Part shown: in pieces, positions 5,432 through 36,815 of the stretch | How positions within the stretch are numbered: position 1 is the stretch's first letter | Layout: each line of letters starts with the position of its first letter | Assembly: GCA_949295065.1 (NCBI GenBank) | Contig: CASFJQ010000041.1 | Span: 1-39,082, forward strand | DNA: 39,082 bases | Source: an uncultured Parabacteroides sp. | Lineage (GTDB): Bacteria > Bacteroidota > Bacteroidia > Bacteroidales > Tannerellaceae | Reading direction: 5' to 3' | Notes under the pieces: model-generated | Seen by the model: the letters and a program-made list of their open reading frames with translations, nothing else | What the model was told of the DNA's origin: nothing | Databases searched by the model: none | Made by a program: the position numbers and the translations under genes

Positions 5432-5440
5432 AGATATAAG

Positions 5441-5530
5441 TTTTTGAGTTTTTGAGTTTTTGAGTTTTTGAGTTTTTGAGTTTTTGAGTTTTTGAGTTTT
5501 TGAGTTTTTGAGTTTTTGAGTTTTTGAGTT
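5441..5530. repeat. Microsatellite: 11 perfect copies of an 8-bp unit upstream of mtnA
   Basis: TTTTTGAG is repeated 11 times without error (5441-5528), plus TT. In the mtnA sense this is CTCAAAAA, the same word found in one or two copies directly before several other start codons in the window (17580-17605, 19130-19150, 22085-22111). It fills most of the 109-base gap between the GH3-family stop and the mtnA start. A perfect tandem array of this size is expected to change copy number by slippage. Confidence 0.97.
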
Positions 5531-5540
5531 TACAAATTTT

Positions 5541-9631: not shown

Positions 9632-9682
9632 AACTTTTTAATTTAGATTAATAATATGAATTTACTTTTTTATTTTTCACTG

Positions 9683-9715
9683 CAAAGAAACGAATTTTTT
9701 ATGTAACAATACAAA
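9683..9715 (-). promoter_or_regulatory. Candidate promoter of acpP-fabF-rnc
   Basis: Read leftward: TTTG (9715-9712), 21 bases, then TTTCTTTG (9690-9683), close to the Bacteroidetes -33 TTG / -7 TAnnTTTG pattern with one deviation. The position suits a leader of ~45 bases before acpP. In the same 259-base spacer, TGCACA and TGTGCA form a small hairpin between two copies of ATTAAAATGCT-like sequence (9723-9776) after pdxB. Confidence 0.5.
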
Positions 9716-9890
9716 TTTACTACATTAAAAATGCTGATTATTGCACATTTTTTCTTTTCTTGTGCATTAAAATGCTCCAAATTACGCCCAATTTCTAACT
9801 ATTTAACATTTATATCAGTAACAAATTGAATAAACATACCTCAAATATCATATATATGCATAGAAAATGTGGCAGATGATTCACGCGTTT

Positions 9891-11030: not shown

Positions 11031-11148
11031 GGGGACGAGTTGACAAGATGACGAGTTGACAAGGCTACAGGAAATAAGGGATATCTTCTTAACTACTTGA
11101 CTCCTTAACTACTTGACTCCTTAACTCCTCAACTTCTTGCCCCAACTC
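11031..11148. repeat. Modular spacer repeat between the MFS gene and pdxB
   Basis: Read in gene sense, the block after the MFS stop is GAGTTAAGGAGTCAAGTAGT repeated in variants, then TAGCCTTGTCAACTCGTC and CTTGTCAACTCGTCCCC, then an A/T-rich leader into pdxB. On the + strand the first part appears as repeated CTCCTTAACTACTTGACTCC. Same architecture as at 36707-36815. Confidence 0.85.
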
Positions 11149-12351
11149 CTATCCTCTCAACTTATTCTTCTCAAAATGCGGCCCAGCCTTGAATCGGAAA
11201 AACAGAATTGAAACTATCGTCAGACTTGCGCCAAACAGATATGCATATTCAAAGCCGCCCCACTGCTGCGCTATATGTCCGCCAATCATAAGTCCGGCAC
11301 CTGTACCCACATCCCAACTTGTAAGATATGTGGAAGTTGCAGTTCCTCTCTGATTATTCTGAGCCAGATTTACAAACAAAGTATTGAATGCCGGAAACAT
11401 TGTTCCGAATGCAATACCCTGCATCAAGGCTATGATTATATAAAAATAAGAGCTGAACATCATATTCCATCTTGCCAGAAGATGCAATGCGGAAAGGCAG
11501 AAAAATGTTCCGGCAGCAAGATACATGCCTAAAGTTATTACAAGAGTTATCCTTCCCTTATCCACTTGTTTCCCGGAAATAACACGCGATGTGGCAAGAC
11601 CTATCGCCATGAATGTAAAATACAATCCTGAATTTACGGTTATACCTATTTCCTCTGCATACATTGCCACATATGTAGAAGTCATTCCATATGGAATAGA
11701 TAAAAGGAGAAGTGATATTCCCGCCCATATTCCTTTCTTAAGGAAGAATCGGTCCAATGATATCGGCTCTCTTTTTACCGGAGCACGGTATGATGTCTTT
11801 ACCATATACGCCATTATCATACCCAAACTTCCGGACAATAAAGAGCAGGCAAATATAAAAGGATAAGAATATGTATTGTGCATAAACAGACCAATCATCG
11901 GTCCGAAACTCATTGCCATGTTGTTTGCCAGTCCGTAGTAACTGATTCCTTCTCCTCGTCTCGACGAAGGCAGAACATCAATGACCAGTGTATTTCCGGC
12001 AACAGTAACCATTCCGAATGCAATACCATGGATGATACGCAACGCGACAAACAATGTTATGGTGGTGGCAAGAATATATCCACCAAATACAGCAATAAAC
12101 ACAAGATAAGCAACAAGATAAAGAGGACGGCGCGAGAATGTATCCAGCAAATAACCGGAAAAAGGCCTGATGCACAGACACGCCACAGTATAACAGGACA
12201 ATATAAATCCTATCCAAGTCTTATCCGCCCCAAACTCTTCCTGCAAATAGAATGCCATAATCGGCATAATCAGGTAGAATGCAAAATACAACAGAAAATT
12301 CGCCGCCAGTATATAACAGAAATTCGGCGAAAGCATTTTATCCTTACCCAT
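11149..12351 (-). CDS. Major facilitator superfamily transporter
   Basis: Probable drug or metabolite exporter of the inner membrane. About twelve hydrophobic segments can be counted. The MFS loop motifs are seen as SGYLLDTFSRRPLYL (loop 2-3) and, in the second half, SGKQVDKGRITLV; LRIIHGIAFGMVTVAGNTL is a typical antiporter-like TM4-5. I chose the ATG at 12351-12349 (MGKDKMLSPNFCYILAANFLL) over the longer frame beginning at 12438, because the extra 29 residues are not membrane-like and their 5' end overlaps the 22-bp palindrome array. Substrate unknown. C-terminus ends KNKLRG at a TAG. Confidence 0.87.
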   Translation of the reverse strand: MGKDKMLSPNFCYILAANFLLYFAFYLIMPIMAFYLQEEFGADKTWIGFILSCYTVACLCIRPFSGYLLDTFSRRPLYLVAYLVFIAVFGGYILATTITLFVALRIIHGIAFGMVTVAGNTLVIDVLPSSRRGEGISYYGLANNMAMSFGPMIGLFMHNTYSYPFIFACSLLSGSLGMIMAYMVKTSYRAPVKREPISLDRFFLKKGIWAGISLLLLSIPYGMTSTYVAMYAEEIGITVNSGLYFTFMAIGLATSRVISGKQVDKGRITLVITLGMYLAAGTFFCLSALHLLARWNMMFSSYFYIIIALMQGIAFGTMFPAFNTLFVNLAQNNQRGTATSTYLTSWDVGTGAGLMIGGHIAQQWGGFEYAYLFGASLTIVSILFFRFKAGPHFEKNKLRG

Positions 12352-12408: not shown

Positions 12409-12516
12409 TTTTCCATAGGCTTGGAAAAAGTTTTTCATGCGGGTGAAAATTCTTTTTCATGCCTGTGAAAATTTATTTTCATCCCTATGAAAAAAGTTTT
12501 TCAGCAATATAAAAAA
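12409..12516. repeat. 22-bp-phased palindrome array II (word TTTTCA-N6-TGAAAA)
   Basis: Five hairpin-type units have centres at 12418.5, 12440.5, 12462.5, 12484.5 and 12506.5, exactly 22 apart. Units are TTTTCC/GGAAAA, then TTTTCA/TGAAAA three times with centres TGCGGG, TGCCTG and TCCCTA, then TTTTCA with a degenerate arm TAAAAA. The first unit changes both arms together (CA to CC, TG to GG), so complementarity is kept. The array is immediately upstream of the MFS transporter, in the spacer after the ExoX-C-like gene. Confidence 0.88.
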
Positions 12517-12572
12517 GGCTGGAAATGCAAATACCTGAATAACAGAATTATGACGCATTGCCTATTTCATAC

Positions 12573-15408: not shown

Positions 15409-15545
15409 TAGTTGACGAGTTTACAAGGATACAGAGACGAGAAAGTTTAGGGTTTAGGGTTTAGAGTTTAGAGTTGAAAGTTAAAAAACTACTTGACTCC
15501 TTGACTCCTTAACTCCTTGACTACTTAACTCCTCATATCCTCTTC
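15409..15545. repeat. Modular spacer repeat with TTTAGGG heptamers (divergent spacer)
   Basis: Holds TAGTTGACGAGTTTACAAGG near the serine acetyltransferase start, four tandem heptamers TTTAGGG, TTTAGGG, TTTAGAG, TTTAGAG (15446-15473), and then CTCCTTGACTCCTTAACTCC-type repeats up to 15536. The serine acetyltransferase and the exported protein gene diverge from this spacer. Confidence 0.8.
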
Positions 15546-16604: not shown

Positions 16605-16793
16605 AAGTTGACGAGTTGACAAGGATTAAACACAGAGACACGGAGTTGAAAAGTTGAGAGTTTAGGGTTTAGAGTTAAATAAATATAGAAACTAATCACT
16701 ATTGACATCTAACTCCATTTACTCCCTTATAACTTCATATAACTCCCTTCTCCTTAACTCCTTGACTACTTGACTCCTCAACTCCTTTAAAAT
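16605..16793. repeat. Modular spacer repeat before the glycosyltransferase cluster
   Basis: Starts with AAGTTGACGAGTTGACAAGG, continues with ACACAGAGACACGGAGTTG and GAGTTTAGGGTTTAGAG, and ends with CTCCTTAACTCCTTGACTAC and TTGACTCCTCAACTCC before the start at 16805. It combines in one spacer several words that elsewhere occur separately. Confidence 0.8.
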
Positions 16794-17521: not shown

Positions 17522-17605
17522 TACAGAGACAAGGGAACAAGGCTACAGAAACAAGAGGCTTGCCTTGCCAACTAATAAACTTAAAAACTCAAAAACTCAA
17601 ATCAT
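17521..17605. repeat. Modular spacer repeat before the glycosyltransferase-kinase gene
   Basis: After the stop come GACAAGGGAACAAGGCTACAG, then GGCTTGCCTTGCCAAC, then the leader AAACTTAAAAACTCAAAAAC and TCAAATCATATG, where the last three bases are the start codon at 17606. Confidence 0.85.
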
Positions 17606-19054: not shown

Positions 19055-19150
19055 CAAGTTGACAAGGGAATAAGTATAAATACCTTGTATCTGAAGCCTT
19101 GTAAACTTGTCAACTAATAAACTTAAAAACTAATAAACTCAAAAACTAAA
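19034..19150. repeat. Modular spacer repeat, complete example
   Basis: Sense arm GTTAACAAGGGAACAAG, then GTTAACAAGTTGACAAGG (19034-19067); short AT-rich loop; antisense arm CCTTGTATCTGAAGCCTTGT, then AAACTTGTCAAC; leader of AAACTTAAAAACTAATAAAC and CTCAAAAACTAAAA up to the ATG at 19152. GTTGACAAG and CTTGTCAAC are exact complements, so the transcript can form an intercistronic hairpin. It begins inside the upstream coding sequence. Confidence 0.88.
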
Positions 19151-19151
19151 A

Positions 19152-19976
19152 ATGGAATCTTATCCTCTGGTTTCAGTTATAACAGTTTGTTTCAATGCCG
19201 AGAATTGCATAATTCCTACGATGGATTCTGTTCTGGCTCAAGACTATCCGAATCTGGAATATATATTGATTGACGGAGCATCCACCGACTCAACTTTGCA
19301 GCTTATACGCAGCAAGGAAAAGGATTTTGCCGACAGAAATATTCCGCTGGTCATAGTCAGCGAACCAGACAAAGGTATTTATGACGCAATGAACAAGGGG
19401 CTGAAACTGGCAAAAGGGAAATGGATAAATTTCATGAATGCCGGCGACAATTTCTATTCCGGAAATATTCTCTCCAGCTTTTTCTCCAACACGGATTATG
19501 GAGAAGCAAAGGTTGTTTACGGGAACACCGTTCTTGCCCTTGATTTCGGTGAAATAGAAATGCTTCCAAAACCGGTGGATTATCTCCGGAAAAAGATGTC
19601 GTTCTGCCATCAGTCCGTATTTGTGGACGGCGACTTGATGAGAAAGGAGAAGTTCGACACTTCGTTCCGTCTGGCAGCAGACTATGCCTTTTTCTACAGA
19701 TATTATATGCAAAGCGGCAAATTCCACTATGTTGAAAAGGTTGTGGCACGATTCGAATCCGAACAAGGCGCCTCATCAAAGAACCGCCTTCAGGTAAACA
19801 GAGAATATGCCCGCATACACGGTGTGGAAAACACTGCTAAATGGAAAATATGGTTTGCCTTCAAATGTCTGCGAGTACATCTGAAGGAAGCTCTCCACAG
19901 TATGATTCCGAAATCATATTTGGGTAAAATAAGGGAAAAGAATTATCGTCGTATTGTCAAAAACAGAAAGAGATGA
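19152..19976 (+). CDS. Glycosyltransferase family 2
   Basis: GT2 of the type seen in exopolysaccharide and colanic-acid clusters. Motifs: VSVITVCFNAENCIIPTMDS (7-26), LIDGASTDSTLQ with D41, EPDKGIYDAMNKGLKLAKG (71-89) and NAGDN (96-100) in the position of the metal-binding DxD. The C-terminal part is basic, with SFCHQSVFVDG and AADYAFFYRYY typical of the acceptor region. Stop overlaps the next start (ATGA at 19973-19976), so the two are almost certainly co-translated. Sugar specificity unknown. Confidence 0.9.
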   Translation: MESYPLVSVITVCFNAENCIIPTMDSVLAQDYPNLEYILIDGASTDSTLQLIRSKEKDFADRNIPLVIVSEPDKGIYDAMNKGLKLAKGKWINFMNAGDNFYSGNILSSFFSNTDYGEAKVVYGNTVLALDFGEIEMLPKPVDYLRKKMSFCHQSVFVDGDLMRKEKFDTSFRLAADYAFFYRYYMQSGKFHYVEKVVARFESEQGASSKNRLQVNREYARIHGVENTAKWKIWFAFKCLRVHLKEALHSMIPKSYLGKIREKNYRRIVKNRKR

Positions 19977-21113: not shown

Positions 21114-21144
21114 ATTATCTGTTTATTAAGATTAACCCAACTAG

Positions 21145-21233
21145 TTTCGCCACATCTGTGACCTAATCAAATCACACCCGTGACCTAATTTCGCCACAAC
21201 TGTGATTTAATCTTTCCACAGCTGTGGCGAAAA
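21145..21233. repeat. 22-bp-phased palindrome array III (word CCACA-NN-TGTGR)
   Basis: Four units with central dinucleotides at 21155, 21177, 21199 and 21221, exactly 22 apart: CGCCACATCTGTGACC, AATCACACCCGTGACC, CGCCACAACTGTGATT and TTCCACAGCTGTGGCG. The centre is TC, CC, AC and GC, while linkers keep the pattern cctaat / ttaatc. The whole array opens with TTTCGCCACA and closes with its reverse complement TGTGGCGAAA. It lies in the 562-base gap 21068-21629, which holds no gene and also contains a MITE-like element and the blaI-like promoter. Confidence 0.88.
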
Positions 21234-21298
21234 CAATTATTACTACTCTATTCAAAAGATATTAAAACAACGCAAAATAGAAATAAATACAATCACTA

Positions 21299-21629: not shown

Positions 21630-22037
21630 ATGGAAAAGCTCACTCCTCAAGAAGAAAAGGCAATGAAAATGATTTGGAAACTTGAAGCATGTTGCGTCAG
21701 AGATATACTGAACCTGTATGAAGATCCAAAACCACCATACACAACACTGGCTTCTGTGGTAAGAAATCTTGAGAAAAAGAAATACATAAAAGGAAGACAT
21801 ATTGGTAATGTTTATGAATATACTCCGGTTGTTCAGCAATCAGAATATAAAAGCAATTTCATAAGCTCGTTTGTTTCCGGATATTTCGGCAACTCATATA
21901 AAGATCTTGTTTCGTTCTTCGCAAAAGAAGAGAAAATCTCAAAAGAAGATTTGGACGAGATTATTAATATGATTGAGAAGGGAAAGGACGAATCCACGGT
22001 TGACAAGTTGACAAGGATACAAGGGAACAAGGGTTAA
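21630..22037 (+). CDS. BlaI/MecI/CopY family transcriptional repressor
   Basis: Winged-helix repressor that normally dimerises on a dyad and is released when a BlaR1-type membrane protease is activated. The N-terminus KLTPQEEKAMKMIWKLEACC with PPYTTLASVVRNLEKKKYIK (~54-73) is the family DNA-binding pattern, and residues ~85-123 form the helical dimerisation part. The partner gene lies 74 bases downstream. The natural end seems to be around KGKDEST; the last 12 residues, VDKLTRIQGNKG (124-135), are coded by the GTTGACAAG-type spacer repeat, so the C-terminus has been replaced or extended by repeat sequence. Confidence 0.9.
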   Translation: MEKLTPQEEKAMKMIWKLEACCVRDILNLYEDPKPPYTTLASVVRNLEKKKYIKGRHIGNVYEYTPVVQQSEYKSNFISSFVSGYFGNSYKDLVSFFAKEEKISKEDLDEIINMIEKGKDESTVDKLTRIQGNKG

Positions 22038-22111
22038 TTTCCCCTTGTATCTGAAGCCTTGTTCCCTCGTCAACTCATAAACTTACAAACTTATAAAACT
22101 CAAAAACTCAA
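21999..22111. repeat. Modular spacer repeat reaching into the repressor gene
   Basis: Sense arm GTTGACAAGTTGACAAGGAT, then ACAAGGGAACAAGG; antisense arm CCCCTTGTATC, then GAAGCCTTGTTCCC and TCGTCAAC; leader AAACTTACAAACTTATAAAA, then CTCAAAAACTCAA before the ATG at 22112. GATACAAGG/CCTTGTATC and AAGGGAACAAGG/CCTTGTTCCCT are exact complements, a strong potential hairpin that includes the upstream stop codon. Confidence 0.9.
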
Positions 22112-23641
22112 ATGCTTTATTACCTTAAAATAAATATTGCATTAGCCGTATTCTACATATTTTACCGGTTAATGTTTGAAAAAGACACATTCCTGGTGTG
22201 GAGACGGTTTTTGCTGATGTTTTTTCCGGTAATAGCCATTATCTTCCCACTGATAAGCATACAAAAATTCATCGAACCGGAATCATATATTGCCGGTTTG
22301 AGCGGATTTTACAGCCAGATTCTGCCGGAAATAGAAGTAAAGGCTGAACAGGTTGGAATCAACTGGGGAGAAATTGCCAGGCAATCGTTATATTTTGTAA
22401 TCGCAGCAGGATGGATTGCGTTGTCAGCCCGTTTCGTTTACAAATTTCTGTTTCTGATAAATTTGGCGCTGAAATGCCACAAAACGAATATCAATGATAC
22501 AGAAGTTTGTCTGCTCCCGTCATATTCCGGTCCGTTCTCGTTTTTCAACAAAATATTCATTTATCCGAAAGCTCATTCAGAAAATGAACTTGAAGAGATT
22601 CTGCTTCACGAAAAAGCACACGTCGCGCAATGTCATACAATCGATGTTCTGATAGCAGAAATAGTAACTATCATCTGTTGGATAAATCCTTTTGCATGGT
22701 TGCTGAAACGCGAGGTGAGAGACAACCTGGAATATCTGGCAGACCGCAAGGTGTTGCTCAGTGGAATTGACAGCAAAAGCTATCAATATCATCTTCTTGG
22801 TTTAAGTTATAATAAGGCTGCAGCTAACTTATATAATAGTTTTAATGTTTTATCTGTTAAAAATCGGATTATTATGATGAACAAAAAGCCTTCAAAAAGA
22901 ATCGAGAAAGCCAAACGTCTGTTGCTGCTTCCACTTATAGGATTTATGTTGTTGTTCAGTTATTGCAATTCTCCGCAATCGAAGCAAAACGAAACATCGG
23001 ATGAAGCGTCAAAAACAAAGGTCAAAGCATTTGTTGTTGACGATTCGGGAATTATTATGGGTGCTACGGTTGTAATCAAAGGAACAAATATCGGAACGAT
23101 ATCTGATTCGAATGGAGAATTCACTCTTGAAGCGTCAACTGACGATACTTTATCAATTGGTTTTCCTTCTTTCCAGTCTAGGGAAATTGCTGTAAAAGAT
23201 ATTCAGGATGGGATGAAAATCAGACTGGAAAATATTCCTGCCAAGGATACCTATGCCGGAATAACAGTTACAGAAAAAAACAGACAGGAGAACAGGAAAG
23301 TTGAGAACACTACGGAAGGCAGTAACAAAGTATTCACAGTAGTGGATGAAATGCCAGAATTTCCCGGAGGGCTTGACGGTCTTTTGAAATTCATCTCAGA
23401 AGAAATAAAATATCCGGTCGAAGCTCAGGAAAAAGGCATTCAGGGTAGAGTAATTCTTGCGATGGTGGTTGACAAGGAAGGAAGCATAAACAATGTTGAA
23501 GTTCTCCGTGGCGTCGACCCGTTATTGGACAAGGAAGCAATTCGCGTAATCGAGAGTATGCCTAAATGGAAACCTGGCAAACATGATGGACAAGTTGTCA
23601 ATGTAAGATATACTATTCCGGTACTATTCAAGCTCCAGTAA
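22112..23641 (+). CDS. BlaR1-like M56 metallopeptidase with carboxypeptidase-regulatory-like and TonB C-terminal domains
   Basis: Membrane sensor-protease expected to act with the preceding BlaI-like repressor. Four hydrophobic segments (~5-22, 34-50, 92-120, 181-197) surround the cytoplasmic zinc site HEKAH (166-170, HExxH) with candidate third ligand E207 in NLEYLADRKVL; a further membrane segment is at ~269-285. The outer part is not a penicillin-binding domain but a beta-sandwich regulatory-like domain (KVKAFVVDDSGIIMGATVVI, ~303-373) and a TonB C-terminal domain (~425-508, ending MPKWKPGKHDGQVVNVRYTI). This architecture is common in Bacteroidetes; the signal is unknown. Confidence 0.9.
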   Translation: MLYYLKINIALAVFYIFYRLMFEKDTFLVWRRFLLMFFPVIAIIFPLISIQKFIEPESYIAGLSGFYSQILPEIEVKAEQVGINWGEIARQSLYFVIAAGWIALSARFVYKFLFLINLALKCHKTNINDTEVCLLPSYSGPFSFFNKIFIYPKAHSENELEEILLHEKAHVAQCHTIDVLIAEIVTIICWINPFAWLLKREVRDNLEYLADRKVLLSGIDSKSYQYHLLGLSYNKAAANLYNSFNVLSVKNRIIMMNKKPSKRIEKAKRLLLLPLIGFMLLFSYCNSPQSKQNETSDEASKTKVKAFVVDDSGIIMGATVVIKGTNIGTISDSNGEFTLEASTDDTLSIGFPSFQSREIAVKDIQDGMKIRLENIPAKDTYAGITVTEKNRQENRKVENTTEGSNKVFTVVDEMPEFPGGLDGLLKFISEEIKYPVEAQEKGIQGRVILAMVVDKEGSINNVEVLRGVDPLLDKEAIRVIESMPKWKPGKHDGQVVNVRYTIPVLFKLQ

Positions 23642-36706: not shown

Positions 36707-36815
36707 TTGAGTTTATGAGTTTTTAAGTTTATGAGTTTACTAGTTGACAAGGGGACAAGTTGACAAGGCTACACAAATAGCTGCTCCCACTTGACTTCTT
36801 AACTACTTAACTCCT
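36707..36815. repeat. Modular spacer repeat between aroA and the small membrane protein
   Basis: In gene sense: GGAGTTAAGTAGTTAAGAAG, TCAAGTGG, then TAGCCTTGTCAACTTGTC, CCCTTGTCAAC, and the leader AAACTCATAAACTTAAAAAC, TCATAAACTCAA touching the ATG at 36706. One of the clearest three-part examples. Confidence 0.88.

Follow-up and report, generated by a model that had tools for sequence, protein, structure and literature searches.

The row of hairpin words at 12409 of the window (the whole stretch of 39,082 nucleotides from an uncultured Parabacteroides sp. analysed here) is one instance of an array design found throughout the genus Parabacteroides, with words that differ between loci and between species. 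The array stood as it had been read earlier from the sequence, with one correction at the fifth unit, and the design proved to be far more general than that sequence-only reading had described. The explanation we lean to, tentatively and at not quite even confidence, is that these are putative docking arrays at the DNA level, serving dimeric proteins with several specificities, and that they have spread in part as MITE-like repeats.

Arrays in the window

The first array was examined by sequence and by a dyad scan, and consists of four dyad units followed by a long-loop end unit at 12409-12531 (Table 1). The dyad centres fall at 12418.5, 12440.5, 12462.5 and 12484.5, an exact 22-bp step, and the centre bases are different in each unit. 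Five words at this step had been claimed; units 1-4 keep it exactly, but the word at centre 12506.5 has the left arm TTTTCA with TAAAAA instead of TGAAAA on the right, and we read it from the letters as the left part of the end unit. The kept arms TTTTCA/TGAAAA with differing centres were confirmed for units 2-4, and so was the joint alteration of both arms in unit 1 (TTTTCC/GGAAAA). The two further spacers said to have the same design with other words do exist, both at lag 22.

The first array separates an MFS transporter gene from a gene whose product has an ExoX-like match at its C-terminus; both genes are on the minus strand. The MFS protein had five relatives among the named genomes, of which three were from Parabacteroides and 77% identical to it. 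Because these relatives align from codon 16-30 onward only, beginning near codon 30, the MFS gene probably starts at 12351 and not at 12438, and the array would therefore begin 57 bp upstream of the gene. It thus adjoins that gene, as had been stated, but probably does not sit on its start; nor is the position a telling clue, since the arrays are placed without regard to gene orientation. Of the 26 genus members in which the start of the MFS orthologue was located, 4 have arrays upstream of it, all of them with other words.

Table 1 Features of the window, related arrays and array words

Feature	Positions	Word or structure	Basis or context
First array, unit 1	12409-12428	TTTTCC-ATAGGCTT-GGAAAA, both arms changed	sequence, dyad scan
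First array, unit 2	12432-12449	TTTTCA-TGCGGG-TGAAAA	sequence, dyad scan
First array, unit 3	12454-12471	TTTTCA-TGCCTG-TGAAAA	sequence
First array, unit 4	12476-12493	TTTTCA-TCCCTA-TGAAAA	sequence, dyad scan
First array, long-loop end cap	12497-12531	TTTTTCAGC-AATATAAAAAA-GGCTGGAAATGCAA	sequence; cap motif one-sided in 20/21 arrays of this word
Second 22-bp dyad array	21141-21240	CCACAnCTGTGA	upstream of Penicillinase_R gene at 21630
Third 22-bp dyad array	about 683-770, limits by eye	ATTGCAATG	upstream of glycosyl hydrolase family 92 gene at 1030
Tandem octamer arrays	5439-5531, 11088-11138, 15488-15533, 16750-16787, 17577-17601, 19112-19152, 22072-22112, 36708-36745	AACTnAAA-like	
21-bp arrays	L247, L250, L254, L255, L256, around 1400-1480 or 1875-1940	ACTA..TAGT	upstream of BlaI/MecI-like genes, three genus members
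Words in source genome		TTTTCATnnnnATGAAAA, AACTAAGnCTTAGTT (21 bp), CACCTAGGTG, TTCCGTATGTAATT, CATTGCAATG	
Words in P. distasonis		TTCACnnnnGTGAA, AACACGTACGTGTT, CAACGGCTGTTG, GTGCCATnnnnGTGGCAC	
Words in other genus members		TTGACAATTGTCAA, GCCTGTCGATAATTGTC	

Separate from the dyad arrays, the window carries tandem arrays of octamers, such as AGTTTTTG repeated 11.6 times at 5439, and several of these extend as far as the next gene's start codon.

Occurrence across the genus

In unselected in-genus sequence, 20 of 370 spacers contained a repeat together with dyads at lags 21-23 (5, 12 and 3, respectively), compared with 5 spacers in all at the other 17 lags tested from 14 to 33. When lag-22 palindrome spacing was compared with shuffled spacers, as had been proposed for checking the first array, 20 first-order Markov shuffles gave 2 such arrays in all (0, 1 and 1 for lags 21, 22 and 23).

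The lag spectra agreed with this count. Spacers of the source genome (173 spacers, 43.9 kb) gave z values of 15.2, 6.6, 7.6 and 4.9 at lags 8, 16, 22 and 44, so that lag 22 was the strongest apart from lags 8 and 16, which are strong in this genome, where the octamer arrays occur. For P. distasonis (ten unselected samples, 68 spacers, 18.8 kb), z was 5.1 at lag 22, 3.4 at lag 21 and 5.3 at the short-range lag 4. Other genus members (18 samples, 129 spacers, 29.5 kb, after L158 and L159 were left out because they sat on contigs with array-like matches) had 42, 21 and 22 as the leading lags, with z of 7.1, 7.0 and 6.9. Outside the genus, no peak at 21 or 22 was observed in 20 samples, several of them short (110 spacers, 29.4 kb; z of -0.1 and 0.4), and dropping L181, L185, L186 and L195, which lay on pattern-match contigs, altered nothing. 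A first count of array places was not used; 50 of its 73 places were runs of N in L081, and outside the genus 13 of 15 were such runs in L188 and L191.

Over 118 distinct arrays, selected ones included, the number of units was three in 35, four in 58, five in 17, six in 6 and seven in 2, and the best period was 21 in 9, 22 in 92 and 23 in 17. The combination first remarked on within the window, one period and design but words particular to each locus, was hence found across the genus. Words may differ even in the same spacer: that of L070 holds a CAATATAC array in P. distasonis, a 22-bp AACACTATTGTT-type array in G025 and about one unit in G016, and that of L141 holds a TTCAC repeat in G025 and a CTGCA..TGCAG array of 22-23 bp in P. 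distasonis.

We also observed 23-bp arrays with ACAAnnTTGT dyads in a genome of another family of the same order (G052; L190:8232-8330 and 9648-9750). These two lay in the first 20 kb, and no further 23-bp array was found in 100 kb more.

Conservation of half-sites in place

G015 was taken as P. distasonis because in nine stretches it matches strain TSDC17.2-1.1 at 97.8-100%. (The records NZ_OY725749 to NZ_OY725834 of this strain are filed as plasmids; they carry ordinary chromosomal genes, among them bamA, secG and bioD, and are probably pieces of the chromosome.) Between G015 and its sister species G016, which are about 96% identical, eleven arrays could be aligned, all of them without indels. 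Positions 3-7 from the dyad had diverged at 16 of 430 sites (3.7%), the dyad-centre positions 0-1 at 34 of 172 (20%) and the flanks at 186 of 2090 (8.9%). Positions 2-7 were below the flanks (p=0.001) and the centre was above them (p=2e-5). From the dyad outward, the profile was 0.21, 0.19 and 0.10, then 0.035-0.047 at positions 3-7, then 0.15, 0.12 and 0.08, with flanks at 0.089. The conserved blocks are thus centred about 5.5 bp from each dyad, and therefore half-sites recur every 11 bp in alternately inverted orientation.

For this profile, flank windows with more than 7/22 mismatches or a gap were left out. Also omitted were L070 (cut down in G016), the second array of L086 (one unit gained), five sites without an array in G016 (L067, L073 first array, L076, L085 and L136 second array), L074, L083 and L084 (no usable anchor match) and L135 (not paired). 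A count on six pairs with cruder flanks gave 6/240 diverged sites in arms, 32/96 in loops and 178/1174 in flanks.

Low divergence of half-sites relative to flanks, without indels, is in favour of docking arrays, as are the recurrence of the same arms from unit to unit and from locus to locus, and the lag-specific signal across the genus. Furthermore, in the other P. distasonis strain, TSDC17.2-1.1, all 13 of 13 arrays were present with length kept and no indels, 9 of them identical over 92 bp. The period does not, then, vary freely between strains, which had been named as an outcome that would speak against the element. Some data fit docking less well. Three arrays compared with G025 agreed with the G016 profile at the centre (27/48 diverged), but less so in the arms (positions 2-7, 14/144, including 9/48 at positions 6-7; flank 91/572), and positions 8-10 had diverged at 23/72. 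In G016, one array had gained a 21-bp unit, one was reduced to about one unit and the five sites mentioned above had no array.

The arrays could instead be a mutational by-product, in which palindromic arrays stay perfect and tandem through slippage and hairpin-templated correction, and selection plays no part. Exact loop inversion was indeed seen in 3 of 43 aligned units, and units are gained and lost; the local array-making process that had been suggested is in this sense partly seen. Arms pooled over all families also agreed more within units (0.724) than between units (0.667), a value reached in 0 of 500 permutations, for which a plain half-site model has no need. However, such a process does not slow arm divergence below that of the flanks, and explains neither one period across different words nor the limitation to one genus in our samples, so that we consider it improbable as the whole account. 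The P. distasonis group, in which the TTCAC word is dominant, gave no support for a within-unit excess (0.766 vs 0.774; 0.730 vs 0.712; 0.712 vs 0.708). Since the agreement appears in the pooled families and not in this group, a hairpin or template-switch component in array evolution is likely. Selection on dyad symmetry or pairing, as originally proposed from unit 1, is supported for the dyads by the divergence profile; pairing beyond the half-sites is seen in the pooled families and not in the P. distasonis group.

One apparent loop conversion (L068/L090) had been considered as copying from unit 3; this was rejected, since the other strain has the G016 state and it was G015 that changed. Arrays were found at rearrangement edges in 4 of 7 array spacers against 8 of 34 control spacers (p=0.10), and in 9 of 17 when ten anchored loci were included (p=0.04, with controls that include far ends of the same indels); the association is suggestive only. 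Having clean orthologues, the arrays are also small natural records, many in number, of how loops invert and units are gained in palindromic DNA.

Placement relative to genes

Unselected in-genus sequence contained 22 arrays, 21 between genes and one in a small ORF. Their spacers were divergent in 7 cases, tandem in 11 and convergent in 3, and spacer length alone predicts 6.2, 12.2 and 2.6. This placement argues against a general role as leader, terminator or plain promoter operator; terminator or leader placement was ruled against by the lack of orientation preference, and the lack of preference for promoters also counts against docking. The neighbouring genes were mixed (25 proteins and 8 more), with Penicillinase_R alone recurring (two).

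A string of hairpins might also act as RNA, in leaders, in terminators or as a small RNA. Folding was stronger than in shuffles for both strands of the first window array (z of -4.7 and -3.5), for the second array (-7.2), for L072 (-11.4) and for L136 (-4.1), and by our own reading the array sits between a promoter-like box and the gene in L012 and L079. Any dyad array folds, however, and arrays follow spacer length in all three spacer types. No Rfam family matched any array at the gathering threshold (11 sources), and arms with standing mismatches are frequent in the TTCAC family. In tandem spacers, moreover, the cap described below points upstream in five cases and downstream in five (own tabulation). 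An element at the RNA level is therefore regarded as very improbable. As a separate observation, the Bacteroidetes FopS small RNA family of Rfam has a match at L075:1563-1635 in the genome of P. distasonis, at a distance of 3.7 kb from an array.

Word families and repeat copies

A two-unit pattern of the TTTTCA word had 35 matches in the source genome at up to 3 mismatches, compared with 1 for the reversed pattern; by our own count of the match list these form 23 loci. The pattern was present in 18 of 59 genomes, namely the source genome, 13 of 34 other genus members and 4 of 24 outside the genus. Matches numbered 1-35 per genome in 13 genus members and 1-2 in the four outside genomes, where all were at 3 mismatches. 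Among 21 arrays of the source genome read with flanks, 20 had the cap motif G[AG]AAAT[GA][CT]AA, or its complement, on the outer side of one end only, the left end in 8 and the right end in 12, never at both and never in reverse, against a background of 0.009 per 130 bp. The distance from cap to array shifts in steps of about 22 bp. Since the cap is one-sided, the TTTTCA family is a polar, capped element. Of its loop words in the source genome, 16/29 have their reverse complement within the same set.

This polarity, with one cap in either direction relative to genes, would be expected of non-autonomous mobile elements, MITE-like or REP/BIME-like, whose dyads are handled by a transposase or replication protein without host function and whose words are separate lineages. 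In G025, the TTCAC array indeed lies within a larger repeat of a few hundred bases with shared flanks in 19 of 20 fetched copies (L137-L155). When eight loci were compared with P. distasonis, a matching site without the repeat was found at four (L138, L140, L143 and L147; net 245-437 bp), with a 46-bp overlap at L143 that suggests target duplication; of the others, one had another array (L141) and three were alignable on one side only. Against mobility as the full explanation, half-sites are conserved in place between species, for which selfish copies have no need, and other arrays of the TTCAC word have unique flanks. No general terminal inverted repeat was found, inverted ends being seen by eye in one G025 copy. 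In addition, five of the six genomes with at least 16 matches lack a Y1 (RAYT-type) transposase: no PF01797 match was obtained in G000, G013, G015, G016 and G025, and the sixth, G020, had four, three of them with an in-frame stop. Taken on its own, the mobile explanation appears unlikely, more plausible though it is than the two alternatives above. As to carriage by phages, two exact word patterns had no match in viral contigs.

Comparison with known elements

BrickBuilt, REP/BIME and tandem operators were the closest known systems, and none of them fits fully. REP/BIME elements with a RAYT transposase are intergenic palindromes in alternating arrangement and many copies; the Parabacteroides arrays differ in their fixed 22-bp step, in having several words per genome and in the absence of a RAYT-type gene from five of the six array-rich genomes. 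Tandem repressor operators, such as the four hipBA operators bound by HipB and the BlaI/MecI operators, are rows of palindromes with fixed arms and a free centre. Our arrays are alike in all of these respects, and conserved half-sites, a free centre and fixed spacing were each found in the 11-array divergence profile; by contrast, most are not placed by gene orientation, they have many words and their spacing is common to the genus. Plasmid centromeres such as parC contain short rows of repeats of about 20 bp that are read on one helix face, whereas the present arrays occur at many chromosomal sites with several words.

The nearest published element, in the literature searched, is the BrickBuilt MITE of Porphyromonas gingivalis, as far as the accessible text of its report describes it (PMC4596501). 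It is intergenic, with a 23-nt tandem repeat, a leader and a tail, and has 19 copies in one strain; its direct repeats, of up to 22.8 units, consist of one word, and its 12-nt terminal inverted repeats are common to IS5-family elements. The likeness lies in the same order, the intergenic position, the similar repeat length and the presence of conserved and variable unit positions. In contrast to BrickBuilt, whose repeats are not reported as dyads in that text, the Parabacteroides arrays are not 23-nt direct-repeat minisatellites: their units are dyads, mostly about four in number and at period 22 in the majority of arrays, with many words and no general terminal repeat. The accessible portions of a P. 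gingivalis genome paper (PMC5771137) and of a paper on hairpin-cluster terminators (PMC8355165) describe no such arrays. The remark that the element has no name held in the literature searched, which yielded no description of such arrays and comprised mostly work outside subscription journals.

Proposed mode of binding

The element is an intergenic short run of dyad units, most often four, at 21-23 bp and mostly 22. Each unit is a pair of inverted half-sites, and successive half-sites, one helical turn (11 bp) apart, lie on one face of the DNA. The array may be occupied by a row of about four side-by-side dimers of a sequence-specific DNA-binding protein that contact the half-sites and not the central bases, because such a row would leave just these traces: half-sites that are conserved, a centre that is free and a step fixed at two turns. 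Different words would be the sites of different proteins, and many words per genome would then need many proteins, which counts against this reading. Word families would spread within a genome, partly in the form of MITE-like repeats or of polar elements with a cap, and within an array the central bases turn over partly by exact loop inversion. From these features we infer protein binding, the dimer state, cooperative binding and effects in the cell such as local nucleoprotein structure, repression or silencing. Among the options raised earlier, putative dimeric proteins of different specificities fit best; a protein that reads structure is the weaker one, since the arm sequence itself is conserved in place.

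If the arrays are bound by protein, they are ready-made affinity baits, each word being expected to pull down its own protein, so that an unrecognised level at which DNA is organised or regulated could be tested directly in a common gut genus. A further and rather doubtful possibility is that the element is defined by its architecture and not by its sequence, i.e., by some eight half-sites, each one turn from the next and opposite to it in orientation, with the word exchanged in the course of time, even within a single spacer, and the layout and number of units kept genus-wide. If true, a matching family of DNA-coating proteins, itself diversifying, would be implied, by which the DNA between genes is organised or silenced.

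Position directly upstream of regulated genes, as expected of operators, was not general among the arrays. It was found for the 21-bp ACTA..TAGT arrays: of 19 Penicillinase_R genes in six genomes, 5 have such an array immediately upstream, and this supports docking. On position, this class would be a plain operator and may serve as a model for array action, not as proof for the other arrays. Arrays of AACTAAG at three loci of the source genome resemble the ACTA..TAGT arrays.
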